Positions 4,379 through 58,104 of a stretch of DNA of 64,000 bases are shown in pieces. The DNA lies in assembly GCA_002105175.1 (NCBI GenBank), contig MCGE01000019.1, positions 744,001 through 808,000 on the forward strand, read 5' to 3'. The position numbers and the translations under genes were made by a program. Under the pieces are notes generated by a model. It saw only the letters and a program-made list of their open reading frames with translations, was not told the DNA's origin and ran no database searches. Origin of the DNA: Absidia repens (Eukaryota > Mucoromycota > Mucoromycetes > Mucorales > Cunninghamellaceae). Every line of letters starts with the position of its first letter. The stretch's first letter is position 1.

Positions 4379-4461
4379 GGCAAGATGGCCGAGTTGGTCT
4401 AAGGCGTCACGTTAAGGCCGTGATCTCTTCGGAGGCGTGGGTTCAAATCCCACTCTTGTCA
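4379..4461 (+). tRNA. tRNA-Leu (anticodon AAG)
   Basis: This is an intronless class-II tRNA of 83 nt. The acceptor arms GGCAAGA and TCTTGTC pair with one G-T wobble, and the discriminator is A. The D-arm contains GGCCGAG...GGTCTAAGG (A box). The anticodon stem TCACG/CGTGA encloses the loop TTAAGGC, giving anticodon AAG, which reads CUU leucine codons. A long variable arm, TCTCTTCGGAGGC, is typical of Leu/Ser tRNAs. The T-arm is GTGGG-TTCAAAT-CCCAC (B box). TTTTT follows directly as a Pol III terminator. The retrotransposon stack begins within about 70 bp downstream. Confidence 0.97.
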
Positions 4462-4567: not shown

Positions 4568-5296
4568 TGTTACGGCTATTTTGGGTATGTAGCTTGTAAC
4601 AGAGTAGTGTTTTTGTAGGTTTTTATATTTTTTTGGGTTGAATAGGATGTCTTGAGGTATCCTTTAGTATAGCTTTTGCTTGTTTATAGCTTGAAAATAA
4701 ATTTGTTCCTTGGGCGGAATTTGAAATATCTTGTTCCTGATTCGGACAAAAATAGAATTGAGAGTAGTGAGCACCAGAACTTTTGTAGGTAAAGTCCAAC
4801 TGTAGAGAAAGTTTATAAAAAATAAACTTGAAAGAGTAAAATAAAATAAAAATAAAAAGTATTGACCTTCGTTGGTTCAATAAAAATAAGTGTATAACAC
4901 ACAGTAAAAATAAAAAAAAAGAGGACTTGTAGTCAAAAATAAAAAAGGTTTCTATAATCCAATAGAAACAGTAGATAATTTGGTGGTATAATAACCTTTG
5001 TACTAAGTTTTATTTGTTAATTGAGAAAACTGATAAAAAACTGAAGAGAAAAAAAAGAAAAGGATAATAATAAAAAGTTGCGATATATATACTAAATAAA
5101 AGTTGATAAATATAAGGGTTCTGTTTTTGGGGTTTTTTGTCTATGTATGAATTTTGCATTGTTTTTGTTTACGTTGATGGCGGTATTTCATTTTTTATAT
5201 TTGTGGGGGACTATACATCTGAGAGGCCCCAGCTGATCAGCTGGTTTATATTAAAAATGTCCGCAGCAATGATGCTGGCGGTGTCATTGCTGATGC

Positions 5297-5343
<47 letters not shown>

Positions 5344-5358
5344 TCGTTATCGTCGACA
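4568..5358 (-). repeat. 3' LTR of element A (carries the end of ORF3)
   Basis: Read on minus it starts TGTCGACGATAACG, then (AAC)n encoding poly-Asn, then the conserved C-terminal peptide of ORF3 (stop at 5211). A TATA-rich stretch (about 5083-5092) follows, and the LTR ends CCGTAACA. The ORF3 end lies upstream of the TATA-like box, so coding sequence and U3 promoter region overlap. Confidence 0.95.
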
Positions 5359-5720
5359 TACTCCTCCTGGGGAGAAGCTGGTCCCACAGCGTTGATTTTA
5401 GTCCAGGGATCCACCAATTCCAACTTCCTGGTTATAGCGGCGAGGTTGCGTTGATCACCTTTCTCCTTCAAAATAAAGGCCAACATTTCCCGTCGTCGGG
5501 TTATATACAGATGTTCATCTAGTGATGTTGTTGGACGCGTTTCGCCCAGGTGGACAAGATCAAGAAGTGTAGGGATAAGTTCAGTGTCGACAATATTTCT
5601 CTTGCGATAAAAGTGTTGCCTTTCTAGATAGCTTTCTTCTGCGTATTGGGTATACATTCGCCCAGCTTGTTCTTCGAAAAACTTCTTGCTTTCAGCAAAT
5701 AGCGTCCAGGTTGTATTCAT
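5211..5720 (-). CDS. ORF3 of element A: novel accessory protein ending inside the LTR
   Basis: A 169-aa protein of unknown function, encoded downstream of integrase. Residues 1-80 contain a block shared with the B, G and I copies (ERQH near 33-36, then a basic NIVDT stretch, LIPTLLDL and LG near 58). Around 88-107 lies a basic helix-like segment ending VDPW, also conserved. The polypurine tract encodes QEE (119-120 region), and the LTR starts at codon 121. LTR-encoded residues are an Asn homopolymer (about 125-141) and the terminal peptide IAADIFNINQLISWGLSDV. No signal peptide or membrane span is seen. The acidic/hydrophobic tail resembles activation or docking motifs, but that is only inference. 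Start is the first ATG after the A-rich spacer and matches the start in B and G. Confidence 0.85.
5359..5368 (-). other. polypurine tract of element A
   Basis: Minus strand AGGAGGAGTA directly abuts the TGTCGACG start of the 3' LTR. The tract is inside ORF3 and encodes part of it. The equivalent tract in B is AGGGGAGGGGCA (13054-13065), also inside ORF3. Confidence 0.75.
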
Positions 5721-5866
5721 TGTTTAATTTGAAGTTTTGTAAAAAAAGAAATATTTGTAAGGTAATGAAAAATATATTTTGTTCTCCTTTTTTTTTTTTT
5801 AAAAAATTTCGTTTCTTTTATAGTTTTTTTTTTTTTTGAGCACCAAAATTATGTGTGTATAATTTG
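5721..5866 (-). other. A-rich spacer between integrase and ORF3 (element A)
   Basis: On the sense (minus) strand this 146-nt gap contains TTTTGGTGCTCA (echoing the primer-binding site) followed by long A runs, and then the ORF3 ATG. Comparable A-rich gaps occur at the same junction in B, G and I. Confidence 0.7.
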
Positions 5867-7198: not shown

Positions 7199-7345
7199 GT
7201 TGATAATTTCTTTTGTTGTGGTAGTTGAGCTTTTTACGACGTCGCACTGGTTGGTCGCATTTGAATTTATCCTTTTTCGGTTTTTTTTTTTTTTTTTTTT
7301 TTATTTTTTTGTGTTAGCCTGATGTTAAATTTTATTGATGGTGGA
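7199..7345 (-). other. A-rich spacer between RNase H and integrase (element A)
   Basis: On the sense strand it holds a run of about 23 A (plus-strand T run around 7280-7303). It follows the stop after ...SRLGY and precedes the integrase ATG. B and F have spacers at the same place with poly(A) and repeated TGGTGC motifs. Confidence 0.7.
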
Positions 7346-10288
7346 TCAGTATCCCAGACGTGATAGGAAATCAGCGGCTTCCTGTTTTCGTCCATTTCGA
7401 TACTTAATTTCAAAGTCATATTCAGCCAAGTATTGGATCCATCTTGCTACAATGCCAGATACTTTGGGTGATTGTACCAACCATCGTAAAGGTGAGTGGT
7501 CTGATATGACAGTGAATTTTTTGCCAAGTAAATAAGGTCTGAATAGTTGTAGGCTCCATACTAGGGCGAGGCATTCCAATTTAGTAGCACCGTAGTTTTG
7601 TTCACTGTTTTTTAATCCGCGACTTGCATAAATCACTGGGTGTTCTTTACCATCATCGTCTAGTTGCGATAAGATAGTACCAATTCCTTTTTGAGAGGCG
7701 TCGCACACAATAATAAAGGGTTTCGAAAAATCAGCACGTCGAAGTATGGGTGCTTGTGTTAATTTTTGTTTCAAAAGGTTAAAGGCATCTGTTGCTTTTT
7801 GGTTCCAAGTAATATTTTTTGTCGTCTTGGTTTGTTCATGTAAAGGTCTTGCAATGGCAGCGAAGTTTTTTATGAATCTCCGATAGTAAGAGGCCAATCC
7901 AATAAAGCCCCTGATTTGTTTAAGGGTTTTTGGTGGAGGGAATTCCTGAATTTTTTTTATTTTTTCTTCATCCGTCTTTATTCCATTTTTTGTTATCACG
8001 TAGCCCAAAAATTTCAATTCGTCTTTGAAGAATACGCACTTGTCGATGTTGAATAATAATCCTCCTTGTCGTGCACATATGAATACTTGTCGTAGATCCT
8101 GTATGTGTTGTATATAGGTTTTGGAGTGGATATTTAGGTCGTCAATGTAAGCAACAAGGCACTTGTTTAGTAACGGACCAAAGCATAGGTCTATTAGGCG
8201 TTGAAAGGTAGCAGGACTATTTACTAACCCCATAGGCAGCATTTCGTATTGATAGGTTCCAAACTTTGTCACGAATCCAGTCAATTCTTTGGTTTCTTGT
8301 TTCAATGGTACTTGGTGGAAACCGGAACGTAGATCCAGCGCTGTGAATATTCTTGAACTGCCTAGTTCATCAATCAAGTCGTCAATTTTTGGCAAAGGGT
8401 AAGCGTCAACTTTGGTTAAAGCGTTTAGTTTGCGGTAGTCAACAACCATTCGGTAATCACCATTCTTCTTCTTGACTAATATTATAGGTGCGGTGTACGG
8501 TGTGCTTGCTGGTTTGATGATTCCCAGGTCACATAGTCGGTCCAGCTCTTGCTTTAAGTACTCTTGCTCCACGGGTGCCATTCGGTATGGTCTATGTCGG
8601 ATAGGTGGTGCATTTTCTTTCAGGATAATTTCGTGTTCCAGTAGTGTGGTCTTGCCCATTCTGTCATTGTGCCAGTCAAACACATCTTGGAATTCTGTAA
8701 GTAGATGTATAAAGGACTTGCGTATATCAGGCGGTACATCTCCTAACTGTAGTTTTTCTTCCTTTGTAGGGTCCAATTCTTGTGGTGGTTGTATAGTGTC
8801 ATCGTCTTTTATATCCATCTGTGCTAATTCATATCCTGTGGATTGTTCGTCGTCGTCTTCTATTTCGAATTTTGTCATTCGATGCGCAATAATAGTGTTT
8901 GGTGGGTAACTTTTGTCATTGTCCGTTATGTTGATATCTATGAACTGATCGTCTTGCAAATATTTTTCGTAGGTAACATCTGGTTGCATGTGGATAATAG
9001 TTGGTAGAGCATTATCATTGGGTGTACTCAAGTCAACGGTGCACATGGTGTATGGTGGAAGGGTGAATCCTTTTTCTTTGGTACTGATGGTTACTTCTGT
9101 GTCCGATACATGGTCTATTCGGAAAGCGTAATCTTGGTCTTCAGCGGGTGTAATTTGACACAATTCTTGGTCTTCATTGTCTTTGTCATCATGTTCCCAT
9201 TCTTCTTCTTCTGTTTCTTCATCGGTGATTTCATCTTCATCACTTGTATCTTGATCGTCCATTATTGGTATTGGTTTGACAGGGATTGGTTGACTTGGTG
9301 GTGGATTCTCTTCTTTATAGATAACGTGTGATGCTTTCAAGGTAACCGGTTTTGATGAAGCTTTGATGTATGTGATAGGAATAATCATCTTCTTGTGTTT
9401 ATAGGTTACGGTTAGTGTTCCCATTTTGATGTTGATAATGGCTTGCGCATGATTCAACCAATCGATTCCTAGGATTAGGTGAGATGGACATTGTGGCAGT
9501 ACTTCCATGTTAGTGGGTATACTAATGCCTTCAGTTATTTTGATAGGGACATCAAGGACTATTCCAAGGGTAGGTTGTCTGGTTCCATTACCAAGGGTGA
9601 ATACATTGGTAGATGGGGTATCGATTTCCATTCCCAGCATCTTCATCATGGTTCTTGACATACATGATTTGGCGGCACCACAATCTATCAGGGCTTTGAT
9701 TTTTCTGTCACCAATATATACTTCAGCATATGCGGCAGTTGTCACCACTTCGCCTTCTTCCATGGCGTTCAATGTTATGGGCGGCTTTCTTCTTTTGGGT
9801 CGACAGACATCACGTAGCTGTTTCTTTAGATAAGGTGATGCTTCGAGTAGATCTCCAACTTCAATATCGGCTTTACGGGTAAGGACATCTTCAGCGATAC
9901 TATATTTAATAGCGGGATGTGTAGGTACTGATCTTTGTTTCTTTTCAACCGTTTCTTGTATAGGAATGTTTTGTTGCAGTGGTTGTGCAGATGAGGATGG
10001 TGTGTCTTCCAATCCATTGGTTCTTCTTTTCTTTGTTGATTTTAAATCATGTAGAACATCAGGTGGTCTGTCTTTTCTGGTAGCAACGTAGAAATCTATG
10101 TCTTCTTCTTCTTCTTCTTCTAATAAAAGGTTAGTATTTTTATATTTATATTTATACTTATTTTGGATATCCATGGTGGTTAGGTTATGGGTTTGTTGTT
10201 GAGTATTGTTTTTGTTATCTTTATGTGTGGATTTGTTAGGCGGGTTTTCCAACTGACCATCAACTACAGTTGCCCGTGCTAGTTTTTT
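7346..10288 (-). CDS. pol: protease-reverse transcriptase-RNase H (pol), element A
   Basis: A frame of about 970 residues, lacking integrase. After an acidic N-terminal linker comes a retropepsin-like protease (ALIDCGAAKS, DCGA instead of the usual DSGA/DTGA; a second motif, LILGIDWL, follows). RT has YRMVVDYRKLN, the PLPKIDDLID and LDLRSGFHQV blocks and the YIDD active site (AYIDDLNIHS). RNase H has VCDASQKGIG, LECLALV and SDHSPLRW, and ends ADFLSRLGY-stop. There is no ATG at its beginning: the frame is open back through the gag 3' end, and entry is best explained by a -1 shift at 10282-10288. The stop after SRLGY is conserved in B and F, so separate integrase translation is a family trait. 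Confidence 0.93.
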   Translation of the reverse strand, partial: KKLARATVVDGQLENPPNKSTHKDNKNNTQQQTHNLTTMDIQNKYKYKYKNTNLLLEEEEEEDIDFYVATRKDRPPDVLHDLKSTKKRRTNGLEDTPSSSAQPLQQNIPIQETVEKKQRSVPTHPAIKYSIAEDVLTRKADIEVGDLLEASPYLKKQLRDVCRPKRRKPPITLNAMEEGEVVTTAAYAEVYIGDRKIKALIDCGAAKSCMSRTMMKMLGMEIDTPSTNVFTLGNGTRQPTLGIVLDVPIKITEGISIPTNMEVLPQCPSHLILGIDWLNHAQAIINIKMGTLTVTYKHKKMIIPITYIKASSKPVTLKASHVIYKEENPPPSQPIPVKPIPIMDDQDTSDEDEITDEETEEEEWEHDDKDNEDQELCQITPAEDQDYAFRIDHVSDTEVTISTKEKGFTLPPYTMCTVDLSTPNDNALPTIIHMQPDVTYEKYLQDDQFIDINITDNDKSYPPNTIIAHRMTKFEIEDDDEQSTGYELAQMDIKDDDTIQPPQELDPTKEEKLQLGDVPPDIRKSFIHLLTEFQDVFDWHNDRMGKTTLLEHEIILKENAPPIRHRPYRMAPVEQEYLKQELDRLCDLGIIKPASTPYTAPIILVKKKNGDYRMVVDYRKLNALTKVDAYPLPKIDDLIDELGSSRIFTALDLRSGFHQVPLKQETKELTGFVTKFGTYQYEMLPMGLVNSPATFQRLIDLCFGPLLNKCLVAYIDDLNIHSKTYIQHIQDLRQVFICARQGGLLFNIDKCVFFKDELKFLGYVITKNGIKTDEEKIKKIQEFPPPKTLKQIRGFIGLASYYRRFIKNFAAIARPLHEQTKTTKNITWNQKATDAFNLLKQKLTQAPILRRADFSKPFIIVCDASQKGIGTILSQLDDDGKEHPVIYASRGLKNSEQNYGATKLECLALVWSLQLFRPYLLGKKFTVISDHSPLRWLVQSPKVSGIVARWIQYLAEYDFEIKYRNGRKQEAADFLSRLGY

Positions 10289-11346
10289 GACTGTTGATTT
10301 TGTTGAGAGGGTTGTTGTGTTTGATTTTGTTGGTATTGTGGATTGTATTGATACTGTTGAGTGTTGTATGGGCGTCGGTTATTGTAATTGGGACGGCGAT
10401 TTTGATTCATGGGTGGTGATGGATGATAACCATTGTAGTCACCGTAGTTAGAATCAAAGACTGGGTCTTGATTTTGGTTATTGTAGTTGCGTTGACCATT
10501 ATTATGATGATACGAGTTTTGATTATAATGGGGCGCATTGTATTGTCGGGGTTGATGACGTGGATTATTGTATCGAGGGTTGGATGGTTGGTTGTATGTT
10601 CCATTTTGATTTTTTGAGAAGTTATTGAATTCTTCTTTGATAATACTTCTGATGGATTTTTGTATATCTTTCATATCCATTGGGTTTGATGAAGTGATAG
10701 CGTTCAAACTGGGTGAGTTTGTAGCGGTTTGATAAGGGGACATTTGAATAGTATCTGCTGGATGAGCAATACGCCGTGGGTGGAAGGGATTGTCAGCCAT
10801 TGTAACCTGTTGAGGGTTATGTGCAGTCCAATAACCTTCGGCGGCTTTGAGCCATGCTTCAATGTCTCTACAGCCAATTGATATGCAATGTTGTTGTATG
10901 ATAGGATGTACTCCTGCTCGGAATCGGCTTTGAATCATTGATTCGGAATCAATTTCGGCAAGTTCAGCAGCTTCAAACAGTCTTGCGTAGAATGTTCGTG
11001 GATGTTCGTCAATACCTTGTACCATGTTGTTGAAGGCATACTCATATGTTTGTATGAGTTCAGGGGTGATATATTGATCCATTAATTTTTTCATGACTTC
11101 GGAGTATGAAAGTGGGTCTTTTGTTTTTTTTAGCAATTTGTTTACAAAAGTCCTAGCAGCGTGGTACAATTGTGTCTTGAGTATAATCAGCTTGCGATCT
11201 TCATCATTGATGTTTGAGAGTGCAAAGTAGTTATCCAATGTTTGTTTAAAATTTCTGAAGTCTTCTCCTTCGAATCCAGAAAAGGGCATTAGCTTCATTT
11301 TTGGTTGGTAGATAGGTCCATTTGCCAACACAGTTTGTTCGTTCAT
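10279..11346 (-). CDS. gag: Gag, element A (no zinc knuckle, prion-like tail)
   Basis: A 355-aa structural protein that should form the virus-like particle. Residues 1-170 show the helical capsid pattern of Ty3/Gypsy Gag (FSGFEGEDFRNFKQTLDNYF, FYARLFEAAELA). From about residue 245 to the end the protein is dominated by N, Q, Y, R and P, with no CCHC zinc knuckle; basic R/N/Y-rich repeats may replace it for RNA binding (inference). It starts from an ATG about 140 nt inside the primer-binding site and ends TAG overlapping the frameshift site. Relatives in B are broken. Confidence 0.9.
   Translation of the reverse strand: MNEQTVLANGPIYQPKMKLMPFSGFEGEDFRNFKQTLDNYFALSNINDEDRKLIILKTQLYHAARTFVNKLLKKTKDPLSYSEVMKKLMDQYITPELIQTYEYAFNNMVQGIDEHPRTFYARLFEAAELAEIDSESMIQSRFRAGVHPIIQQHCISIGCRDIEAWLKAAEGYWTAHNPQQVTMADNPFHPRRIAHPADTIQMSPYQTATNSPSLNAITSSNPMDMKDIQKSIRSIIKEEFNNFSKNQNGTYNQPSNPRYNNPRHQPRQYNAPHYNQNSYHHNNGQRNYNNQNQDPVFDSNYGDYNGYHPSPPMNQNRRPNYNNRRPYNTQQYQYNPQYQQNQTQQPSQQNQQSKN
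10282..10288 (-). other. -1 ribosomal frameshift heptamer A AAA AAC
   Basis: In the gag frame the minus strand reads TCA AAA AAC TAG: a canonical X XXY YYZ heptamer immediately before the gag stop. Slipping back one base opens the pol frame (AAA AAA CTA GCA). Just downstream CAACTG and CAGTTG can pair, a possible stimulatory stem. Element B keeps the same heptamer (18101-18107). Confidence 0.8.
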
Positions 11347-11507: not shown

Positions 11508-12235
11508 TGTTACGGCTATTTTGGGTATGTAGCTTGTAACAGAGTAGTGTTTTTGTAGGTTTTTATATTTTTTGGGTTGAATAGGATGTCTTGAGGTATC
11601 CTTTAGTATAGCTTTTGCTTGTTTATAGCTTGAAAATAAATTTGTTCCTTGGGCGGAATTTGAAATATCTTGTTCCTGATTCGGACAAAAATAGAATTGA
11701 GAGTAGTGAGCACCAGAACTTTTGTAGGTAAAGTCCAACTGTAGAGAAAGTTTATAAAAAATAAACTTGAAAGAGTAAAATAAAATAAAAATAAAAAGTA
11801 TTGACCTTCGTTGGTTCAATAAAAATAAGTGTATAACACACAGTAAAAATAAAAAAAAAAGAGGACTTGTAGTCAAAAATAAAAAAGGTTTCTATAATCC
11901 AATAGAAACAGTAGATAATTTGGTGGTATAATAACCTTTGTACTAAGTTTTATTTGTTAATTGAGAAAACTGATAAAAAACTGAAGAGAAAAAAAAGAAA
12001 AGGATAATAATAAAAAGTTGCGATATATATACTAAATAAAAGTTGATAATATAAGGGTTCTGTTTTTGGGGTTTTTTGTCTATGTATGAATTTTGCATTG
12101 TTTTTGTTTACGTTGATGGCGGTATTTCATTTTTTATATTTGTGGGGGACTATACATCTGAGAGGCCCCAGCTGATCAGCTGGTTTATATTAAAAATGTC
12201 CGCAGCAATGATGCTGGCGGTGTCATTGCTGATGC

Positions 12236-12282
<47 letters not shown>

Positions 12283-12297
12283 TCGTTATCGTCGACA
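11508..12297 (-). repeat. 5' LTR of element A
   Basis: Near-identical to 4568-5358, including the same (GTT)n length, and followed by the GAAG duplication. Confidence 0.95.
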
Positions 12298-12301
12298 GAA
12301 G

Positions 12302-13053
12302 TACCAAATATGTACGGTTTGTTAAGCTTGAATACTCAGTAACGGTGTGAAGTTAACTTTTTAGTTAAGTTCCAGTTATATTTTACACCAAATAGATAGT
12401 GTATAAGTGTTTGCTTGTTCTTGCTTGAACGGATTTGCAGTGAGGACCAAAATTTATTTTTCCCCTGAATCGGAATTTGAAATGTCCTTTTTTGTTTACT
12501 TGACTTGTAGTCTTGAAAAATAGAGAGTACCAAATATCCAAATAAATTATTTGATCTAAGTAGAAAGTACCAGATATGTTATTGGTAATAAGTAGTGAGC
12601 ACCAGAACCTTTGTAGATAAAGTCCAACTTGAAATAAAAGAAGTTTTGAAAGAAAACTTGATAAAATAAAATAAAATAGAAGTATTGACCTTAGCTGGTT
12701 CAATAAAAATAAAAAAGAGTATAGCTGACTCTGAAAGTAAAATAAATAAAGATTTCTATAGCAAAATAGAAATGACTTGATAACTTGGTGTTTTTATAAA
12801 AAAAACCTTTAGACTTAAACTTTTATTTGACTAATGAGTAAAGTAAGATAAAAAAACTAAAGAAAAATAATTTTATACCAAAAAGTTCGCCTTTTTATAC
12901 TAATTTGAAAAGCGGAGTATGATGATAGTTGATGAAAGCGGAGTATATGAAGTTGACGAAGGTGACAAGCTGTGGCGTATTCATTCACGAGTGGCCCAGT
13001 TCATTAGTTCTCTGAGACCAAATAGGTTAGCTAAGTCCAGCTCGTCGTTGACA
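12302..13053 (-). repeat. 3' LTR of element B, main part
   Basis: Continues 4530-4567 after element A. On minus it begins TGTCAACGACGAGC and encodes the ORF3 C-terminus. A TATA-like box (TATAAAAAG, minus, 12891-12899) lies about 155 nt in, so the ORF3 stop (12981) is upstream of the promoter. Confidence 0.93.
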
Positions 13054-13415: not shown

Positions 13416-13486
13416 GTTTATAGTGATGTATTGATTGAAAAAGTATACGGATAGTTTCGCTTTTTCCTTGGTCTTGATATATATAT

Positions 13487-13530
<44 letters not shown>

Positions 13531-24852: not shown

Positions 24853-25149
24853 TGTAATATTTGATAAAATAGAAGACGTTATAAAGAAATAAGTGATATA
24901 ACAGATATGGTTTTTATTGAATAAAATGAGGAAGGGTTTTTATAATAAAATGAGAAAAAGAAGGCTGTGCTAGTTGTGGCTGTGGATATAGTCGAAGAAT
25001 GGTAATATGAGGCTATGAGAAGTTGGTTATCTGTAGATATAAGTATATATGCCTAAGTAGTGGATACTCGAGGCTGTGTCTTATACCTGTATAGGAATGA
25101 CAAGTGTGATAGTGTGGGAAATGATTAGTGACAGATGACAAATACGACA
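24853..25149 (-). repeat. 3' LTR of element C
   Basis: Identical by eye to 30246-30542. On minus it starts TGTCGTATTTGTC, has TATAAAAACC as a TATA-like box, and ends AATATTACA. Confidence 0.95.
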
Positions 25150-25216
25150 TCATCCCCTTCCAGTTTGAATAAACGTTTTTTTGAAAAGGATGTATTTGTG
25201 AAGTCGTGTGTGAAAA

Positions 25217-25260
<44 letters not shown>

Positions 25261-25316
25261 GCCGATCTTCTCAGTCTCCTGATTTTCAAGCCGTCGGCAT
25301 TGTTTTTGATTTTTAC

Positions 25317-28300
25317 CTAGCGGGCTCTTTTATGTCCTCTACTGGTATTTTTATCTTTTTCAATGTCCGTCCGCTTTCTTTTCAGTGCTGGGGTCGGTCG
25401 ATTTATATTTTTGTTTCTTTCTTTGTTATTTTTTTCCTTTTGATCGGTGTCTTGTCGTCTTTTCCAATATATGTCAATTTCATCTTGTGCATTCATGTCT
25501 TGTGCCTTTATCCATTGATCATCTTCGGATGTATATCCTTTCCAACGAACTTTGTATTGACGTTGTCCAGGTGTTCCTTTGTGGTCTAGGATGGCTTCGA
25601 TTTCATACTCGTCATCATTATGTTCATCGTGCGAAACGGATTTCAACTCTGATGGGACGTAGTTGCGTGAAGCTAGTGCACCTGTCATGTCTTTTAGGAC
25701 GTAAGTACCGTTTGTTGTTTTTTGCATGACTTCAAATGGACCGTCGTATAATGGAGCTGATTTATTTTTTCTTGTAGGGATTTTTGCGACTACGAAGCTA
25801 CCAACGGGAAAGTCAACAATACGGTGTGTTTTATCGAATGCTTCCTTTTGTGAATCTATTACTAGTTGTGTACGCTCTTTGATTGCCGGAAATACAACAT
25901 CTGCCATATATTCGAGTCGTTTTACCAATTCTTCATAGCTCATGGGTTTTAGAGTGGCAATGTTGGTTTGTGGATCACCGGTAAGCGTGGGTTTATTCAT
26001 ATGTCGTGCGAACATCAAAGAGAATGGGGGTGTTTGAAGACGTTTTGAAATCTTGTTATTCATTACCAATTGTGCATTAGGTACGTACCAGTCCCAGTCT
26101 TGTCTAGTTCCTTGGCTTTCTTTGTTTATTATTGTTTTGGCTACTTGGACGTAACGTTCAGCAAGACCATTTCCTCTTGGATGATATGGTGTGGAAAACC
26201 TACGATCGATTCCCATAGTCTTGTGTAATGCTGTGTCGAGCTTGTTTTTGAACTCGGTGCCGTTGTCCGATTGTATGATTCTTGGATAGCCGAAATCGCC
26301 AAATACTTTGATCAACGTATGAATAAGTGTGTCTGCCTTTTTGTCAGGTAATGCGCGTAGAATTGTGAATCGTGTGCAAACGTCAACCATTACTAATAAC
26401 CATGTATTTCCTTGTGTAGAAACTTTGAATGGTCCAGCTAGATCGATAGCCCAATGGTCGGTTGGTAGATATGCATGTACTGGTCTCAAGGGATTGTAGC
26501 CTCTTTTTCCTATATTGTATTTTTGGCAAGGTGGGCATTTTTGGACAATGTCAAGTGCTTGTTTGTACATGTTGGTCCAGTGTAATCCTTCATGATGTGC
26601 AGATTTTACGATTGCTTCTGCTCCGAAGTGTCCGTATTCATGTAGTCTTTGTAGAATGGCACTGTGCTCTGTGGTCGGAGGTGTGATGAAATTCATATCC
26701 ATGGATTGGATTGCGCGAAGGTGAATGTCTTCTTCTGTGGTTTTGTTTTCTATGGATGGATCCAGTTGTGCTTTGTGTTTATTGGCTTGAATGTGTGGTG
26801 TCTGATTACCCCCTGGGATTTCTTTGTGCGGTGTGGCAAGACGTGACAAGAAATCAGGAAAAATATTCAAGGCTCCTGGTTTGTGTATGACGGTGAACGA
26901 ATAGTCCAGGATGGTATCCAACCAGTTAATCATCATGGGTGATGCGATCTTTTGTGTATGAATGTAAGTGAGGGCGCGATGGTCAGTGTACAATGTGAAT
27001 GGATTACCCCAAAGATACTTATGAAACTTTTTTAGGGCAAAGACAATTGCAAGCAGTTCCCTTTTGTTGGTGCTATAGTTACGCTCAGAAGTGGACAATG
27101 ATCTGGCCATGTATCCTATGAAACGTTCTTTCCCATGGATGATTTGGTACAAGGCGGCACCGATGCCGTAGTTAGAGGCATCTGTGGCTACGTAAAAGGG
27201 TTGATTCAAGTCTGGAAAATGAAGTAAGGTATCCCTTTTTAGTTGTGTTTTGATCAGTTCGAAATGCTTTTGATGTACTGATGTCCAATCTTTATCTGTG
27301 ATTTGATTATAGTTGCGTAATGCATCAAGTGGACTGGTGAGCGTGGCAACGCCAGCAAGATGGTTACGGAAATAGTTTACGATACCGAGGAATTGTTGCA
27401 TTGCTTTGCCGGAGGTAGGTCTGTTCCATTCAAGAACATTGCAGACCTTTCGTGGATCAAGATCATAGCCGTCTTTGGAAACGCAGAAACCAAGTAGGAA
27501 TACAGCTGTTTGGGCCCAATGGCATTTTTTGGGATTCAAGATCAGATTTACTTCGGTCAGCTTTGTGATAGCGATGGCAACATGCTTGGTGTGTGATTCC
27601 ATGTTGTCTGAGAACACTACAACGTCGTCAATGAAGGTGTGTACAAAAGGTAAGCCTTGGAAAACTTCATTCATAACTCGTTGGAATTTAGCTGAAAGGG
27701 TTTTCAGTCCAAATGGTGCTCCTTGGAACATGTACTGACGTCCTTTATTTGTGAACGTAGTTTTATGTTGGTCTTCTGGATGTATTTGGAAACGGTGGAA
27801 TGCGCTTTTCAAGTCCAGTGTGGTGAAGACAGCGGCTCCATGCATGGATTCAAAGATGTCTTTTATCAAAGGTAAGGGATATACATCGTCCTTCAAGTGT
27901 TTATTGATGTGACGTGGATCGAGGCAAGGTCGCCGACCAGTAACAAAACCTTTTTCATCTTTTTTAGGTGCTAGTGTTAGCGGACTGTTCCATGTAGTAT
28001 CAATTGGAGCATCAACGATCGTGCCATCAGCAAGCCATTGTTTTACAGCTTCGTCGACGAGTGGCTGTAACGTGACGGGGATTGGGTACTGACGATGATT
28101 AGTGCGATCGGTTGGCATGTCAGGTGTATCTAGTCTGACCATTGATGTAGGTAAGGTACAGAAAGATGTGATTGGTATTTTTTGATTTTCATCAGCTAAC
28201 GGTAATATTTTGTTTAGGAAGTCTTTTCGCTCCGTGGCAGTACCAGCGGGTGAATCATTCGGTGTTGGTGGATTGTCAATGTTATGATTTTCTTTTGGTG

Positions 28301-29309
28301 ATCTCAAATGACTATTTGGCCAACTGACGGGAAGGTTGACGACTTCGATATTAAAAGTAGACATCAAATCATCAGCAATCAAACAATCAAAGTCTTTCGA
28401 CAAATCAGTGACTTGGAAGGAATGCGATATAGTGACATTATTGAAAGTGATCAACATTGGAATAGTTTTACCGTAGCTTTTTGTAGTCTTATTGCCTGGT
28501 AGATATATAGTAGTAGTATAGTTTGAATCAATTTTTATTTTATTTATATCAATAAACTTTTTATCTATAACTGAAACATTGGCTCCGGAATCACAAAGGG
28601 CAAACGCTTGCTTATTCTGTAGAAGAAGTGGAAAAACGTATTTTTTAGTTGAGGGCAAGTTTGTGATCATGTTGTGGCAATAGACTTTTTTATTTTTATT
28701 TTTATTTTTATTTTTACCTTCGATGTTATCGAGCTGAGCTTCGATAGCCAGTGCATTCAAAGAGGCAGTGTAGTTGTCCATCTCCGTGTCGGCAGGGTGG
28801 CTGATATCTAGGGCATTGAGACGAGCATTGCGTGCCGCAAAGTATTCACGACCTTCTTGACACTTGTGGCCAATGGTGTAAGGGACCTTCTTGCAATACC
28901 TGCAAAGTGGAGCGGAGGAAGAGGCAGCAAAGGCAGAGGAAGAAGCGACAGAGGCAGAGGAAGATGCGGTTGGAGCAGATGAAGAGATGGCAGAGGCAGA
29001 TCTAGGGGCATGATCGATGGCACGGCCTTTTCCCTTCTTGTTGCGGTTGAGGCGTTGGAGTTCCCTACAATCCTTGGTGGCATGAGAGGCGTTATCACCA
29101 TGGTGAGAGCAGAAGAGTCCAGTACGCACGGATTTGTCACGTTGGTGGCGTTGGCGGCGACGAGGGCGATGAGAGGAGTCGGAATCAGAATCAGAGTCAA
29201 CATGGTTGAACGAACGTTTTTGAACGTGTAGCTGTGTTGCAATCTTGATGACTTCTTCGGCGGATTGAGGAAGACCATGGGCTTGAGCTTTATTGTAGTG
29301 AGCGGCCAT
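25317..29309 (-). CDS. pol: Pol polyprotein of element C (rest of Gag, PR, RT, RNase H, IN, chromodomain)
   Basis: A 1330-residue open frame. Order: end of capsid, Ser-rich linker, two Cys/His clusters (CSHHG...C and CRYC...GHKC, about 70-150), protease (ALCDSGANVSV, about 238-248), RT (LDLKSAFHRF; active site FIDD), RNase H (ATDASNYGIGAAL, YTDHRALTYI), integrase zinc domain (HEYGHFGAE...CPPCQ), catalytic core (HWAIDLAGPF, IQSDNGTEF, HPRGNGLAERY) and a C-terminal chromodomain (EYEIEAILDH...YKVRWKGY...DQWI). Chromodomains bind modified histone H3 and steer integration to heterochromatin in related elements. The frame's first ATG is artificial: the true N-terminus is the gag frame upstream. Confidence 0.95.
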   Translation of the reverse strand: MAAHYNKAQAHGLPQSAEEVIKIATQLHVQKRSFNHVDSDSDSDSSHRPRRRQRHQRDKSVRTGLFCSHHGDNASHATKDCRELQRLNRNKKGKGRAIDHAPRSASAISSSAPTASSSASVASSSAFAASSSAPLCRYCKKVPYTIGHKCQEGREYFAARNARLNALDISHPADTEMDNYTASLNALAIEAQLDNIEGKNKNKNKNKKVYCHNMITNLPSTKKYVFPLLLQNKQAFALCDSGANVSVIDKKFIDINKIKIDSNYTTTIYLPGNKTTKSYGKTIPMLITFNNVTISHSFQVTDLSKDFDCLIADDLMSTFNIEVVNLPVSWPNSHLRSPKENHNIDNPPTPNDSPAGTATERKDFLNKILPLADENQKIPITSFCTLPTSMVRLDTPDMPTDRTNHRQYPIPVTLQPLVDEAVKQWLADGTIVDAPIDTTWNSPLTLAPKKDEKGFVTGRRPCLDPRHINKHLKDDVYPLPLIKDIFESMHGAAVFTTLDLKSAFHRFQIHPEDQHKTTFTNKGRQYMFQGAPFGLKTLSAKFQRVMNEVFQGLPFVHTFIDDVVVFSDNMESHTKHVAIAITKLTEVNLILNPKKCHWAQTAVFLLGFCVSKDGYDLDPRKVCNVLEWNRPTSGKAMQQFLGIVNYFRNHLAGVATLTSPLDALRNYNQITDKDWTSVHQKHFELIKTQLKRDTLLHFPDLNQPFYVATDASNYGIGAALYQIIHGKERFIGYMARSLSTSERNYSTNKRELLAIVFALKKFHKYLWGNPFTLYTDHRALTYIHTQKIASPMMINWLDTILDYSFTVIHKPGALNIFPDFLSRLATPHKEIPGGNQTPHIQANKHKAQLDPSIENKTTEEDIHLRAIQSMDMNFITPPTTEHSAILQRLHEYGHFGAEAIVKSAHHEGLHWTNMYKQALDIVQKCPPCQKYNIGKRGYNPLRPVHAYLPTDHWAIDLAGPFKVSTQGNTWLLVMVDVCTRFTILRALPDKKADTLIHTLIKVFGDFGYPRIIQSDNGTEFKNKLDTALHKTMGIDRRFSTPYHPRGNGLAERYVQVAKTIINKESQGTRQDWDWYVPNAQLVMNNKISKRLQTPPFSLMFARHMNKPTLTGDPQTNIATLKPMSYEELVKRLEYMADVVFPAIKERTQLVIDSQKEAFDKTHRIVDFPVGSFVVAKIPTRKNKSAPLYDGPFEVMQKTTNGTYVLKDMTGALASRNYVPSELKSVSHDEHNDDEYEIEAILDHKGTPGQRQYKVRWKGYTSEDDQWIKAQDMNAQDEIDIYWKRRQDTDQKEKNNKERNKNINRPTPALKRKRTDIEKDKNTSRGHKRAR

Positions 29310-30184: not shown

Positions 30185-30245
30185 GTTGAGTTTAAAATAG
30201 ATTTTTGTAAAAAGATGAAAATAAAATAATATTCACTTAAAAAAA

Positions 30246-30542
30246 TGTAATATTTGATAAAATAGAAGACGTTATAAAGAAATAAGTGATATAACAGATA
30301 TGGTTTTTATTGAATAAAATGAGGAAGGGTTTTTATAATAAAATGAGAAAAAGAAGGCTGTGCTAGTTGTGGCTGTGGATATAGTCGAAGAATGGTAATA
30401 TGAGGCTATGAGAAGTTGGTTATCTGTAGATATAAGTATATATGCCTAAGTAGTGGATACTCGAGGCTGTGTCTTATACCTGTATAGGAATGACAAGTGT
30501 GATAGTGTGGGAAATGATTAGTGACAGATGACAAATACGACA
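30246..30542 (-). repeat. 5' LTR of element C
   Basis: Followed by ACTTG. The expected tRNA-type TGG primer site is not obvious next to it; the adjacent minus sequence is T-rich then AAGTGAATA. Confidence 0.95.
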
Positions 30543-31712: not shown

Positions 31713-32945
31713 TGTTGTGGCTGTTTTTAAGTTTTGTTATAAGTGAAATCCAAATATGTTATGGTAAACTTGATGTTTTTGATGTTATTTGTATAGTTTG
31801 GTATCGATAGAATAGTATCTTGCACCAAATGTGTCTTGTATTAAAATAATTTTTCTTCCTAGTGAGAGTCAAGAGCGATTTATTTTTCTCTGGACGGAAT
31901 TTGAAATTTGGTTTCCTGTGGTCCCTGAATTGACTTTTGTTTATAGAGAGAGCACTAGATATGTGTCACACCAAATATGTATTTGATAACGAGAAGTGAG
32001 CTCCAGATATGAGTTTGGATAATAAGTAGTGAGCACCAGAACTTTTGTAGGTAAAGTCCAACTTGAAATAAAAGAAGTTTTTTTTTTTTTTAAAAGAAAA
32101 CTTGATAAAATAAAATAAAGTAAAAGTATTGACCTTGATTGGTTCAATAAAAATAAAAAGTGAGAGTATAACTGACTCTGAAATAAAATAAATAAAGATT
32201 TCTATAGCAAAATAGAAATAACTTGATAACTTGATAATTTGGTGGTTATAAAAAAAACCTTTGTACTGACTATTATTTGTTAAATGAGAAAAGTATATAA
32301 GTGAAATGATTGATATAAATAAAAAGACAAGAGTAAAATAAGTGATACAATTGATATGATTTTTATTTAATTGATAAAATGTCAAGTCTTTTTATAATAA
32401 AATGAAGATATTTGTGGCTGTGGATGGGAGCATGATAACGGTGTATTTGAGACTACGGATAGTTGAGGCTGTGTGCTATCTGATGTGTTGAATGACAAGT
32501 GTGAGAATAAGTGGGGAATTCAGGGGTAAAAAATAGAGTGAAGAGATAAGTCGGATATACAAATGATGATGGCATAGATGCTTTTGATGTAAATATTGCT
32601 AAGCAGGAACCAGGAATACGACAATAAGAAAAACTAAAGAGAAAGAAAAGGATAATAATAAAAAGTGGGGTATTTATACTAATTTTTGTTGGTTTCTTTT
32701 GTTGCTGATGCGTTTTATATTTTTTTTGTTGGTTTTGTTGCTAATGCCTTTTATGTTTTTTTTGTTCTTTTTGTTGCGAGAGTTGATATCGCTTCTTTGT
32801 TGTGGGATCATTCATCACTTAGACCCCATCCAAGCACTTGGTTGATATTAAAAATATCGGCGGCAATGGTATCGGCGGTGGTAACCGGAAAGTGGCGACA
32901 TTGGCGGCATTGGTGGCAGTGGTGGCAGTGGTGGTTTCCATAACA
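31713..32945 (-). repeat. 3' LTR (E-type) of truncated element F, with a nested solo LTR
   Basis: Own pieces are 31713-32301 and 32624-32945. It ends CCATAACA next to a G-rich polypurine tract (minus GAGGGGGGGCA). Minus-strand LTR codons encode IAADIFNINQVLGWGLSDE-stop (stop at 32808-32810). Confidence 0.85.
32302..32623 (-). repeat. solo LTR (element C relative)
   Basis: 322 bp, TGAAATG...AATACGACA, flanked by ATAAG (32297-32301 and 32624-32628). It resembles the C LTR in its end and TATA region. Confidence 0.88.
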
Positions 32946-33053
32946 TGCCCCCCCTCGGGCCAAGTTGATCCTCCAGCGAGATTCTTGGTCCAGGGGTCGA
33001 CCATTTCCAGCTTCTTAAGGATAGCACACACTTGTCGTCGGCCGGCCTTTTGA
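32808..33053 (-). pseudogene. ORF3 remnant fused to integrase by deletion, element F
   Basis: The conserved VCAILKKLEMVDPWTKN segment, the PPT-encoded PEGGH and the LTR tail are recognisable. Upstream, the frame joins integrase codons (KALKYQ) at about 33053, so the integrase C-terminus and ORF3 N-terminus were removed by one internal deletion. A frame change in the His/Cys-coding repeat separates the two halves. Confidence 0.75.
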
Positions 33054-36362: not shown

Positions 36363-37183
36363 GTAGACTTGATGTTTTTGATGTTATTTGTATAGTTTAG
36401 TATAGATAGAATAGTATCTTGCACCAAATGTGTCTTGTAATAAATTAATTTTTCTTCCTAGTGGAATGGCTTTTCTTAGTGAGAGTCAAGAGCGATTTAT
36501 TTTTCTCTGGACGGAATTTGAAATTTGGTTTTCTGTGGTCCCTGAATTGACTTTTGTTTATAGAGAGAGCACCAGATATGTATCACACCAAATATGATTT
36601 TTGATAATGAGTAGTGAATTCTATATATGAATTTGGATAGTAAGTAGTGAGCACCAGAACTTTTATAGATAAGTCCAACTTGAAATAAAAGAAGTTTTAT
36701 AAAGAAAACTTGATAAAATAAAATAAAGTAAAAGTATTGACCTTAGCTGGTTCAATAAAAATAAAAAGTGAGAGTATAACTGACTCTGAAATAAAATAAA
36801 GTGGATTTCTATAGCAAAATAGAAATGGAATAACTTGATAATTTGGTGGTTAAAAAAAAAACCTTTTGTACTGAACTTTTATTTGTTAAATGAGAAAAGT
36901 GTGAAAAAAAAACTAAAGAGAAAGAAAAGTGAAATAATAAAAAGTGGGGTATTTATACTAAAAATTTGATATCTATAGAGATGTTGAGATGGTTTGTTTT
37001 TGTGTTTTTATTCTATGAGGGAGTTTCTATTTTTTTTTGAGTTATGTAAATGTATTTTCTATATTTTTTTTTTTTGTATTTCCATTGAGCTAATTTCTAT
37101 TCATAGCCCAGTCCATCAGTTGGTTGAAACCAAAGATGTCCGCAGCAATTTGTCCAGCAGTGTCCTCAATGGCGGACCCAACA
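36363..37183 (-). repeat. 3' LTR (E-type, 5'-truncated) of element G
   Basis: Starts inside the E-type LTR (GTAGACTTGATG) and ends GGACCCAACA beside the G purine tract. It carries the end of the G ORF3. Confidence 0.8.
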
Positions 37184-37545
37184 CGCGCCTCCCCAGAGGA
37201 AACTGTTCCCACAGTGTTCGGCTTCGTCCAGGGGTCTACCGCTTCCAATTTCTTCAGGATAGCCGTGAGGCTACGCTTATCACCTTTTTTTGTCAGGAGT
37301 GCGAATACCATCTCCTTACGCTTCGTGGCATATAGTTCTTGTTCCAATACGCTAAAGGGTTGAGCTTACCCTAATTGCACCAAGTTCAAAAGACTAGGGA
37401 TTAGTAGGGTATCAACAATGTTTTGCTTCTTATAATAGTGTTGTCTTTCCAAGAAAGTTTCATCGGCATAACTAGTGTACGCTTGGTTGGCTTGTTTTTG
37501 ATAATAGTTGTAGTTTTCAGTGAAAAGAGTCCAGTTAGCGTCCAT
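37090..37545 (-). pseudogene. ORF3 of element G, one in-frame stop
   Basis: A single frame of 151 codons from ATG 37545, interrupted by one TAA after NLVQLG. It is close to the A copy: WTLF at 5-8, FLERQHYYKKQNIVDT (about 32-47), LIPSLLNLV, a GDKR...LKKLEAVDPWTK segment, the PPT region SSGEAR, and the LTR-encoded IAADIFGFNQLMDWAMNRN. The A/G similarity gives the best independent support that ORF3 is a real protein. Confidence 0.85.
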
Positions 37546-41662: not shown

Positions 41663-42374
41663 CTTTTTATTAAAGCTTTAGTAATATTTCACACCAAATG
41701 TCTTGTGTATATGAGTATTCTTGTTATTATTTGAACGATGTTGTAGGGAGAGTCTCAAAAAATATCTTTCCCCTGATTCGGAATTTAAAATTGATTTGTT
41801 TTCTTGACTGTAGTCTTGAAAAATAAATAGAGAGTACCAACTATGTTATTGGTAATAAGTAGTGAGCACCAGAACTTTTATAGATAAAGTCCAACTTGAA
41901 AGAAGTTTATAAGAAATAAACTTGGAAAAAAAATAAAAAATATTGACCAGTAGGGTTCAATATGGTAATTCAATAGTATATATACGAAGATATATAGCAC
42001 TGCCAAACAAAATAAAAGTACTAAGACTCGAGGTTGGTTTTAAAAAAAACCTTTTATTGAGAGAATACAAATAGGAATTACATCCTATTTATACCTTTTC
42101 TTTAAACAACTGGGAATGAATTCCTAGTTAAAAAACAATAAAAATAAGAACTAAAAAAAAAACGTCGAAAAGAAGCTAAAAAATGAATAAAAAAGACGTT
42201 AAAAAGAAGTAAAAAAAAAAGAGAAAAAAAACTAATAAAAGTTGCCAACGGAGAAAAAGAAGGGGTCAAAAAATAAATAACCCAGCAGAGTCACAAAACA
42301 ATCCCTAATTTTGGGCCCAGTTGAGCAGTTCATCGAGATTAAATAATTTTTCTAAATTGAAGTCATCACTGACA
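41663..42374 (-). repeat. LTR (D-type) of a lost element
   Basis: Ends TCACTGACA at the ORF3 fragment below; its first ~100 bp lie to the left of nested LTRs or are lost. Confidence 0.75.
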
Positions 42375-42600
42375 TGTGCCGGCCCCGCTTCAATCTGGCC
42401 CAGATTGAGCCAATGGTCCTTAGCCTTGATTTTCTTCCATACATTTGTTATATTCCTTTTGTCACCAATGGCCTTTAGCTGTCTTCTTACATATCCTCCA
42501 GATTTCGATAGGTATACCCTGCGTTCTTCCCAGGTAGTCGGTTTATTCGAACGTTGATGTATAAGATCCAACAAAGTTGGGGTTAATGTGGAGTATATGT
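42305..42600 (-). pseudogene. ORF3 C-terminal fragment (D-type element)
   Basis: Encodes LTPTLLDLIHQRSNKPTT, a GDKRNITNVWKKIKAKDHW segment, and the LTR-encoded DDFNLEKLFNLDELLNWAQN-stop. The N-terminal half is missing at about 42600. It is the most acidic/hydrophobic version of the tail. Confidence 0.75.
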
Positions 42601-43044
42601 TCTCACCCGATTTTTTTTCTCAAAAATAATATTTCGGGTCACACATAATTTGTAATACATACCATTCATCAATATAATAAAATAAAAGCTTTTTTATTGA
42701 TATGTACATTTTAATTATTTTTAAAATTCTGTATATGTACTACTTCTAACATTATCGTCATTATATTGCATATTTTTTTTAGGGCTATATACTGTATATT
42801 TTTCAATTTTATTACAGTCACATAAGAAGCTCAATGTTTATTTCATTATCTATTTCAACATCCGTTTAAAAAGCCATTTCAAAAAAAAGCGTGTTGGGCC
42901 ATGTCAACATGTAATGTTGTACACAGTGGCACCTTTAATAGTATATATCTATATATAGAATATATGGATAAATGTTTATACATATATTTACCTATTATAT
43001 TTATAATCCAGAACTTATTTTTGAGGTGAGAACATATACTCCAC
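42588..43044. mobile_element. inverted-repeat element (MITE-like)
   Basis: GTGGAGTATATGTTCTCACC at 42588-42607 is repeated exactly in reverse complement at 43025-43044, and CTCAAAAATA is also inverted just inside. The interior is non-coding and AT-rich. No convincing target duplication was found, so the superfamily is unassigned. Confidence 0.75.
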
Positions 43045-56756: not shown

Positions 56757-57446
56757 CAGAGTAGTGTTTTTGTAGGTTTTTATATTTTTTTTTTGGGTTG
56801 AATAGGATGTCTTGAGTTATCCTTTAGTATAGCTTTTGCTTGTTTAGAGCTTGAAAATAAATTTGTTCCTTGGACGGAATTTGAAATATCTTGTTCCTGA
56901 TTCGGACAAAAATAGGATTGAGAGTAGTGAGCACCAGAACTTTTGTAGATAAAGTCCAACTGTAGAGAAAGTTTATAAAAAATAAACTTGGAAGAGTAAA
57001 ATAAAATAAAAATAAAAGTATTGACCTTTGTTGGTTCAATAAAAATAAAATGTATAACACACAAAAGAATAAAAAGAGGACTTGTAGTCACAAAAAAATA
57101 AAAGAAAGTTTCTATATAGACGATAGAAACAAAATAAAAATAAGACAGTGATTTGGTGGTTAAAAACCTTTGTACTGAATTTTATATAAAAAGGGTTGAG
57201 ATAATAATATAATAAAAATTAACTAAAGAAAAAGAAAATTGAAAAAAAATTGGGATATATATATAAAAATAAAATTTAAAAATGGACTAAAAAAAGACGT
57301 CGGGGTAAAATATACGCAGGTAAAAATATGACATTGGGGTAAAAAAATATGAAGGGATAAATGTAACAATCAACAAAAACTTAAGCTCCCATGGCCCAAT
57401 TTTGCAGACCAGCGATTCCCAATAGGTTTGCTCAGGTAACATTTAC
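56757..57446 (-). repeat. 3' LTR (A-type, truncated) of element I
   Basis: Begins CAGAGTAGTG (about 30 bp into a normal A-type LTR) and ends AACATTTACA. The minus tail reads DVNVT-stop-ANLLGIAGLQNWAMGA-stop, the motif with one nonsense codon. Confidence 0.82.
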
Positions 57447-58104
57447 ATCCTCGGGCCGAGGGTTGACTGTGCCTCCAGTCATTAACCATTCATCCTGCAC
57501 CTCCAAGTGCCGCCAGAGAGCACGCTTTATTGTTGTGGCGTTATAATCGTTATATAGGATTCGCACCATGCGAGTTAACAGTCTTCTACTGTATATTGCA
57601 GTCCCGTTTCTTGGGGTCCAATCTGTTGATGCGCCAACTTGATAATGGCTGGTGTGAGTTGAGTTGATATGATATTCGTGCGATTCCAATGTAGCGACCG
57701 TTCTTGGGTGTATAATTCCATATATTTGGCTGAGTGTGTTTCGACTTGGAGTCGCACGTATTGGGCGTCTCTTCTTCAGCGGTCATTGGCCAAGTGCGGT
57801 TAATATAGTTGGTAGTAGAGGTGACGTTCACATCGGGAGAATCATTGTTACTGTTATTGTCGACTTCATCTTGTTCGTTATCCTTGTTGACTTCATCTTG
57901 ATCGTTAAGATTAGCTTCTTCATTGTCGACTTCTTCTTGTTCGTTGTCCTTGTTGACTTCATATTGATCGTTAAGATTAGCTTCTTCATTTCCGAATTGG
58001 ATAGGCGCAAAAGTCCAATCGGGGTTCGTAAGCCAATCACTATCGGCGGGATCGAAAGTGGTATAGGGGTAGAATTGAAATGGGTGAATAACTTGGTTGT
58101 TCAT
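57370..58104 (-). pseudogene. ORF3 of element I with acidic N-terminal extension
   Basis: Starts at ATG 58104 (MNNQVIHPFQFYPYTTF). Two tandem copies of an EEANLNDQ-EVNKDNEQ unit follow, making a strongly acidic ~100-residue extension absent from A and B. Then comes the conserved block (RTWPMTAEEE, YTQERSLHWNRTNI, LTPAIIKLAH, IKRALWRHLEVQDEW) and the LTR-encoded tail. A frameshift near 57750, another near 57590 and a stop in the tail break it. Confidence 0.78.

Follow-up and report, generated by a model that had tools for sequence, protein, structure and literature searches.

The Fourth Open Reading Frame of Element A

Retrotransposons are usually regarded as gag-pol machines driven by host transcription factors. 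An open frame downstream of integrase that passes through the purine-rich tract and stops inside the long terminal repeat (LTR) raises the question of whether some of these elements carry a further gene, and what that gene would do for them. Such a frame (ORF4) was found in element A, located in a 64,000-nt stretch of the Absidia repens genome (contig MCGE01000019.1, positions 744,001 to 808,000), referred to here as the window (Table 1). A sequence-only reading of this DNA had claimed that the frame at 5211-5720 crosses the purine tract and ends in the LTR before the TATA box, and this was confirmed in full. ORF4 of element A was open on the minus strand from an ATG at 5720, 146 nt beyond the integrase stop, to a TAG at 5211, encoding 169 aa plus the stop. 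Its first 362 nt preceded the 3' LTR, which was entered at 5358; the other 148 nt were LTR sequence, and the frame terminated 5' of the LTR TATA box.

Table 1. Positions in the window of element A, of further ORF4 copies and of features discussed in the text.
Feature	Position	Strand	Remark
tRNA-Leu (AAG)	4379..4461	+	3' end toward 3' LTR of A; gap to LTR end 107 nt
3' LTR of element A	4568..5358	-	TGTCGACG...CCGTAACA; initial 148 nt ORF4-coding
ORF4 of element A	5211..5720	-	codons 1-121 before the LTR, tail codons 122-169 within U3
Purine-rich tract	5359..5371	-	CCCAGGAGGAGTA; adjoins 3' LTR; read in frame by ORF4 (direct reading)
TATA box, predicted internal promoter of A	5817..5822	-	TATAAA; 102 nt 5' of ORF4 ATG
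Poly-A tract, 14 A	5824..5837	-	3' of integrase stop; module joint
Integrase ORF (separate), 443 aa	5867..7198	-	H2C2 and rve domains; no chromodomain match
Second poly-A tract, 22 A	7281..7302	-	pol/integrase gap; no TATAWA within next 30 nt
pol (protease, RT, RNase H)	7346..10252	-	domain matches
gag, 355 aa	10279..11346	-	Retrotrans_gag match under its cut-off
A AAA AAC	10282..10288	-	immediately 5' of gag stop TAG; apparent -1 frameshift site into pol (direct reading)
5' LTR of element A	11508..12297	-	LTR comparison
12-nt repeat, two copies, U3 of B	12909..12946	-	5' of its TATA; possible binding sites
ORF4 of element B, 144 aa	12981..13415	-	intact; LTR begins at 13053; ends 73 nt inside LTR
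TATA box of B	13482..13487	-	behind 40-nt poly-A tract; predicted internal promoter
A-type ORF4 remnant	32808..33053	-	stop at codon 13; just the C-terminal tail ORF4-like and in frame
G-type ORF4	37090..37545	-	single in-frame stop, codon 60
C-type ORF4 remnant	42308..42619	-	open there
Broken long-type ORF4 copy	57435..58104	-	start region and D-W region in different frames

Domain matches and LTR comparison placed element A among Ty3/Gypsy elements, with protease, RT and RNase H followed by integrase between two LTRs. The chromodomain expected of a chromovirus was absent from its integrase in a domain search, and was present in the 1330-aa pol of the window (25317-29309). That pol belongs to a chromovirus at 24853-30542, which lies between 297-nt repeats reported to be 100% identical and contained no ORF4 match. 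The gag frame of A closes with A AAA AAC TAG, and pol continues from this point in the -1 frame (10279-10291), an apparent -1 ribosomal frameshift. Integrase has an ORF of its own, preceded by a poly-A tract that lacks TATAWA (7199-7345). Directly after the 5' LTRs stands TTGGTGCTCACTAC, a likely primer-binding site, related copies of which occur beside some poly-A tracts. Only three one-base length changes separated the two LTRs of A over the 780 nt compared, and CTTC stood on both flanks; the insertion therefore looks young. It is nested in the 3' LTR of element B, 38 nt short of that LTR's end.

The start of the LTR fell within ORF4 wherever it could be placed by matches to other copies. 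The distance from there to the ORF4 stop was 145 nt in A, about 71 nt in B, 67 nt in the C type (59 nt in C27) and about 80 nt in the long types L039 and L035; among the loci compared, no step at the LTR start was seen against other copies for G, L046, L054 and the long L032. The purine stretch at the border, CCCAGGAGGAGTA followed by TGTC in A and AGGGGAGGGGCA followed by TGTC in B, was read in frame in both elements. Phase was constant across the border, with the TGTN start of the LTR read as xxT GTN and valine occupying the residue-122 column in 20 of 22 aligned proteins, and the purine-rich stretch is thus coding as well.

Six copies in the window had been named as encoding related proteins. 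The frames of A and B were intact, while those of G (37090-37545) and F (32808-33053) were broken by stops at codons 60 and 13, respectively. Coordinates given for a D-type remnant (42305-42600) proved to be out of frame and are replaced by those in Table 1. For copy I (57370-58104), the frame proposed did hold the start region, but the D-W region lay in another frame (57435-57782), and the locus looks like a broken long-type copy. The conserved blocks noticed earlier held up in the wider alignment, in which P50, Y72, D104, W106 and G113 were invariant in all 22 proteins.

Conservation and Selection of ORF4

A genome search returned 105 ORF4 matches at E <= 0.01, LTR-only pieces included, which was more than chance. 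Among the 95 of 204 candidates covered by integrase scoring, ORF4 lay within 1.5 kb downstream of 39 of the 42 clade integrases (at least 49% identical to that of A and reaching its C-terminal part) and of none of the 22 distant integrases that reached residue 401 or beyond, shorter matches being left out. The ORF4 profile at E <= 0.1 likewise found nothing in six loci behind distant integrases. A host tandem gene family, suggested by clusters of genome matches, was rejected, as the clusters on C11, C14, C45, C46 and C51 carry integrase pieces beside ORF4. Of the 73 core hits listed, 34 lacked an integrase hit within 1.5 kb, and part of these was inspected.

The sequence-only reading had taken dN/dS near 1 across copies as a sign against a gene; instead, the copies indicated purifying selection. 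Codon analyses were made by NG86, with dS often saturated and the pairs within a group not independent, and gave dN/dS of 0.05-0.13 in 13 of 15 C-type pairs (those with finite dS), 0.10-0.26 in 16 of 21 B-type pairs and 0.29-0.32 in three of six long-type pairs; dS was infinite in five of six A/G pairs, 5/21 B-type, 2/15 C-type and 2/6 long-type pairs. Apart from the low-divergence pair L035/L055, which had a dN/dS of 1.21 at a dS of 0.056 and was read as dead copies, the other C-, B- and long-type values were infinite or undefined. Frame dependence was clear across all 15 C-type pairs, where pN/pS in the core was 0.22 in frame vs. 1.02 (+1) and 1.87 (+2), and in the U3 part 0.17 in frame vs. 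0.62 (+1) and 1.33 (+2). The U3 part of the B type (ten pairs from five copies) gave 0.29 in frame vs. 0.81 and 1.34, and four disjoint pairs gave 0.24 in frame vs. 0.71 and 1.25 out of frame. Differences by codon position inside U3 numbered 60/27/84 (C) and 68/31/112 (B). ORF4 is under purifying, frame-specific selection, within the LTR as well, and the earlier proposal of an extra 3' gene in a fungal Ty3/Gypsy lineage that reaches into U3 was supported as a conserved feature. Within the copies of A, a run of Asn codons varied by whole codons, from 9 to 15 in L001, L002, L005 and L006; copy L007 was out of frame beyond this run.

Predicted Structure and Relatives of the ORF4 Protein

The AlphaFold model of ORF4 from element B (10 sequences) contained helices at residues 9-29, 35-60, 67-85, 92-105 and 107-114, with block pLDDT of 76-93 over residues 11-110. 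Values fell below 50 at residues 116-131, a disordered linker encoded by the purine tract and the beginning of the LTR. Further on, inside U3, a short helix at 134-142 reached about 50. The tail encoded by U3 was hydrophobic and acidic, with a net charge of -2 to -9 in 20 of 20 rows, made up of 19 of the 22 aligned proteins (L014, L054 and L023 left out) and type X. By direct reading, F-x7-W occurred in 18 of 18 tails. A strict filter for activation-domain-like composition was passed by 11 of 18 tails, those of A, B, C28, l35, l32, 52 and X failing; the same filter passed 0-4.3% of gag, pol and integrase windows, 174 of 1876 ORF4-core windows and one of four database relatives. Judging from the model and this composition, ORF4 may consist of a helical core and an activation-domain-like or docking tail. 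The long-type protein contains LIDLTSEESD (L039:3190-3756), and ELIDLTTEQVE occurs in Rhizopus microsporus P0013; both resemble a SUMO-interacting motif.

With ORF4 of A alone as query, a protein database search found no match. The 22-row profile, searched against 5.8 billion proteins, retrieved five, four from A. repens and one from Chlamydoabsidia padenii. The earlier reading had made its case depend on a homologous frame in other genomes, and relatives were found there: a clear homologue in another genus, the C. padenii protein (hhalign 99.7%), and weaker ones in two more species. In Absidia glauca, a gene model had an ORF4-like stretch at its start (90%), and 722-aa proteins of R. microsporus were integrases with an ORF4-like domain at their end (two single sequences scored 69% and 78%, and a profile built from seven scored 91%). 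A Halteromyces model was weaker (44%), and two further long Rhizopus-type integrase proteins scored 0.6% (P0028) and 2.1% (P0045); all 15 shuffled controls, including six of the two R. microsporus sequences, stayed at or below 0.8%. An AF2 model of the R. microsporus fusion had block pLDDT of 28-48 from residue 571 on, too poor for comparison.

A Pfam search gave no family match for ORF4, and no foamy-virus, Nef, Sag or DNA-binding family; Foldseek of the ORF4 model against the PDB and viral models returned nothing at E <= 0.001. No relative of the integrase was found in the viral contigs searched, nor any match to ORF4 of B in the phage records. A PDB sequence profile hit 11 designed alphaRep-type chains, which were taken as an artifact, as 10 of the 11 had no single passing stretch.

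Accessory proteins have a precedent in Cer1 of Caenorhabditis elegans, a Ty3/Gypsy-type element. Its nuclear accessory protein CERV is needed for RNA export and, like ORF4, has no obvious homology elsewhere (PMC10309623). A corresponding role of ORF4 in exporting or packaging genomic RNA would fit the C type, in which the final 90 residues before the LTR are basic (+8 to +9). However, several ORF4 cores are neutral or acidic, no RNA-binding family was matched, and CERV is spliced, shares exons with gag and is not a 3' gene (PMC10309623). We consider this role highly improbable.

Predicted Internal Promoter and Repeats in U3

The region between integrase and ORF4 was compared over 23 junctions, of which seven had no poly-A tract. 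At the other 16 the tract measured 10-41 nt, and in 14 of these 16 it was followed within 1-9 nt by TATAWA, vs. 2.5 expected from mononucleotide shuffles; two had the tract without a TATA. The count is not fully independent because several junctions are related. TATAWA lay 69-113 nt ahead of the ORF4 ATG. Among the pol/integrase gaps, eight were tried and six poly-A tracts found, none of them followed by TATAWA, with only 0.3 expected by chance. The motif ahead of ORF4 is thus a predicted internal promoter; if active, it would yield a subgenomic ORF4 mRNA. Splicing of ORF4 to a 5' leader, suggested by a chimera at C11:736168, was set aside after inspection, as no conserved acceptor was noticed in the leaders. 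That chimera (C11:735468-736590, L031/L032) joins the U3-R of a long-type LTR to a C-type ORF4 after CAGTACAAAG and may be a true chimera or retrocopied RNA. Two mini-structures in L035 (684-1106 and 2947-3426) have the first ca. 95-122 nt of the LTR joined to the ORF4 leader, followed by ORF4 and LTR.

Seven types were scanned for motifs in U3 beyond the ORF4 stop, and five of them had type-specific repeats or a palindrome. L039 carries 18 bp x 4.9, L041 and L045 carry 14 bp x 3, B and G carry 12 bp x 2, and the C type has a 10-bp palindrome. Types A and X had no repeat of at least 10 nt in the stretch scanned, and in a wider scan (13 segments of 300 nt each, 40 shuffles) B24 and B35 had nothing beyond chance. 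An inverted repeat of A, B41, l32 and X (GTTTCTAT...ATAGAAAC) was not counted because it lies past the first TATA candidates. The repeats and palindrome are suggestive as candidate binding sites.

Exchange of ORF4 between Elements

Comparison of whole elements suggested that ORF4 is swapped among elements whose other parts are about 92-100% identical, in some pairs along with the U3 sequence next to it. The C-type loci L047, L048 and L038 were 95-100% identical over pol and integrase (100-nt bins) and 97-100% over the LTR past the ORF4 stop, yet identity across ORF4 was just 67-83%, apart from 95% for L047/L048 in the final bin. One break coincided with the poly-A tract, and the other fell close to the LTR start or to the ORF4 stop. 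Ahead of the poly-A tract, element A and L045 averaged 92% identity, with 77% in the final 205 nt; they had no nucleotide match over ORF4 and the upstream U3, and matched at 92% again from 158 nt past the ORF4 end, 36 nt beyond the TATA start. The X-type elements L058 and L060 carry a different ORF4 type behind an integrase 93-94% identical to that of A as protein (78% by nucleotide over the last stretch), and a match of 89-90% resumed 113 nt past the ORF4 end, at a point 9 nt short of the TATA. Against L039, which has another ORF4 type, A showed 95% in pol, 77% in integrase and 87% in the later LTR. In L037 (C51:50000-58000), pol is joined straight to ORF4 and integrase is missing. As the breaks in mosaic elements fall at poly-A tracts, these tracts behave as module joints. 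ORF4 is not always exchanged with U3, since the three C-type loci keep the LTR past the stop nearly unchanged, and joint exchange is partly forced by linkage because ORF4 and U3 overlap.

Such mosaics could also arise if poly-A tracts and LTRs were template-switch hot spots and ORF4 merely lay between them, making the exchange functionally meaningless. Poly-A tracts bound integrase too, L037 fuses pol directly to ORF4, and A and L039 diverge separately in pol, integrase and ORF4, all of which would be expected of hot spots. This account leaves the conserved gene, its TATA and its tail unexplained, and we regard it as quite unlikely as the full explanation; taken as an account of the swap alone, it is compatible with a regulatory role of ORF4.

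The exchange could instead be the signature of an arms race in which ORF4 counters host silencing, either the RNAi of Mucorales or chromatin silencing. C-type ORF4 alleles approach synonymous saturation while their flanking modules are nearly identical, a pattern that would be expected under selection for new nucleotide sequence or for changed contacts with the host, and the LIDLTSEESD of long-type proteins resembles a SUMO-interacting motif. An anti-silencing role is very unlikely in our view, as the ORF4 protein is under strong purifying selection, no family match pointed to a silencing suppressor, and the U3 overlap and joint exchange with U3 would be left unexplained.

ORF4 as a Possible Self-Transactivator

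The sequence-only reading had compared ORF4 with retroviral nef and sag, had limited the likeness to position and had left the function open. Retroviral nef and the sag of MMTV are 3' ORFs that read into U3. This limit was borne out, as neither family was among the Pfam matches. A closer working analogue is Tas (Bel1) of foamy viruses, a 3' regulatory gene with an internal promoter whose product has DNA-binding and activation domains (PMC3798896). ORF4 is likewise a 3' gene with a predicted internal promoter and a protein in two predicted parts, but it has no family match and belongs to fungal Ty3/Gypsy elements without env, and its promoter and activation function are predictions. By this analogy, ORF4 may be a self-transactivator that is expressed from its own internal TATA promoter, binds the upstream U3 and switches on the LTR promoter. 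The helical core would bind DNA, possibly the repeats of the five U3 types, and the U3-encoded tail would serve as the activation domain. This is the best supported of the readings because of the predicted promoter, the acidic U3 tail, the joint exchange with upstream U3 and the type-specific repeats. We nevertheless hold it tentatively, at somewhat less than an even chance, because no DNA-binding domain was recognized, A and X have no repeats, C-type ORF4 is swapped without the rest of U3, and ORF4 is fused to integrase in R. microsporus.

Exchange could take place during reverse transcription. First-strand transfer in or near R combined with a template switch at the poly-A tract would give the pattern of A and L045, and by this route regulator and target promoter would move as one module. 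It is possible, though rather doubtful, that internal promoter, U3-tailed transactivator and U3 response elements form a self-contained cartridge that is swapped whole during reverse transcription in mucoralean Ty3/Gypsy elements. If so, one replication backbone could be re-wired to a new regulator-promoter pair in a single step. A conserved gene that overlaps the LTR and has a predicted promoter of its own would mean that self-regulation in the style of complex retroviruses has arisen in fungal Ty3/Gypsy elements too. The natural ORF4/U3 mosaics provide swap partners on related backbones in one genome, making the idea directly testable.

Additional ORFs (aORFs) behind pol are known in other elements and, like ORF4, occur in most copies; the sense ones are described as env-like, whereas ORF4 is a predicted helical bundle with an LTR-encoded end. 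The source describing them also names the fungal element Boty in its figure list. No LTR-entering fourth gene was described for fungal Ty3/Gypsy elements in the accessible literature, most subscription papers being outside its scope, so that absence is unproven. The poly-A/TATA motif, the cassette exchange, the acidic tail, the type-specific U3 repeats and palindromes and the association with tRNA genes described below are new beyond the sequence-only reading.

Insertion beside tRNA Genes

In a raw count, a tRNA gene lay 48-241 nt beyond the 3' LTR end in 15 of 19 copies; 27 copies were tried, eight of which were dropped for having no LTR end in reach. The tRNA genes represented ten amino-acid types and were always on the opposite strand with the 3' end toward the element. 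The placement was common to ORF4 types A, B, B41, C and G; the L039 long type was flanked by another LTR, and X was not in reach. Eight of the 19 copies had an older LTR end, 20-76 nt on, between element and tRNA gene, so that successive insertions seem to pile up beside one tRNA gene. The elements with ORF4 provide a fungal example of insertion close behind tRNA genes. Among dictyostelids, the LTR retrotransposon Skipper-2 likewise lies downstream of tRNA genes, at 7-136 bp; Skipper elements differ in bearing chromodomains, and the accessible part of that source mentions no ORF4-like gene (PMC5006619).

This placement bears on the main rival to the self-transactivator, in which ORF4 would be a detached partner of integrase that helps in nuclear delivery or aims integration 3' of tRNA genes, acting in trans where chromoviruses have a C-terminal chromodomain. 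ORF4 follows integrase in nearly all clade members (39/42), an ORF4-like domain ends the 722-aa integrase ORF of R. microsporus, the integrase of A has no chromodomain while the 1330-aa pol of the window has one, and the elements sit downstream of tRNA genes (15/19). However, all ORF4 types with a tRNA gene in reach share the placement, so the type does not set the target, and L037/L024 retains an open ORF4 despite its missing integrase. TATAWA accompanies the ORF4 poly-A tract and is missing behind all six integrase tracts, where few would be expected anyway; the long Rhizopus-type integrases P0028 and P0045 have no ORF4 match; and the R. microsporus domain model offers no usable comparison. 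Such an integrase partner is, in our assessment, unlikely, and the self-transactivator remains the reading we favor.

The sequence CTGGTGCTCACTAC recurred at 21 places across the LTR array (4764-56937). All 21 window matches of the LTR motif were on one strand, which would be explained by insertions stacking beside tRNA genes in a fixed orientation. The window also contained long inverted repeats at 38834-39136 / 56303-56605 (98% complementary) and 43153-43582 / 56327-56756 (94%), and an ORF at 63257-63919 with an NmrA-like match.
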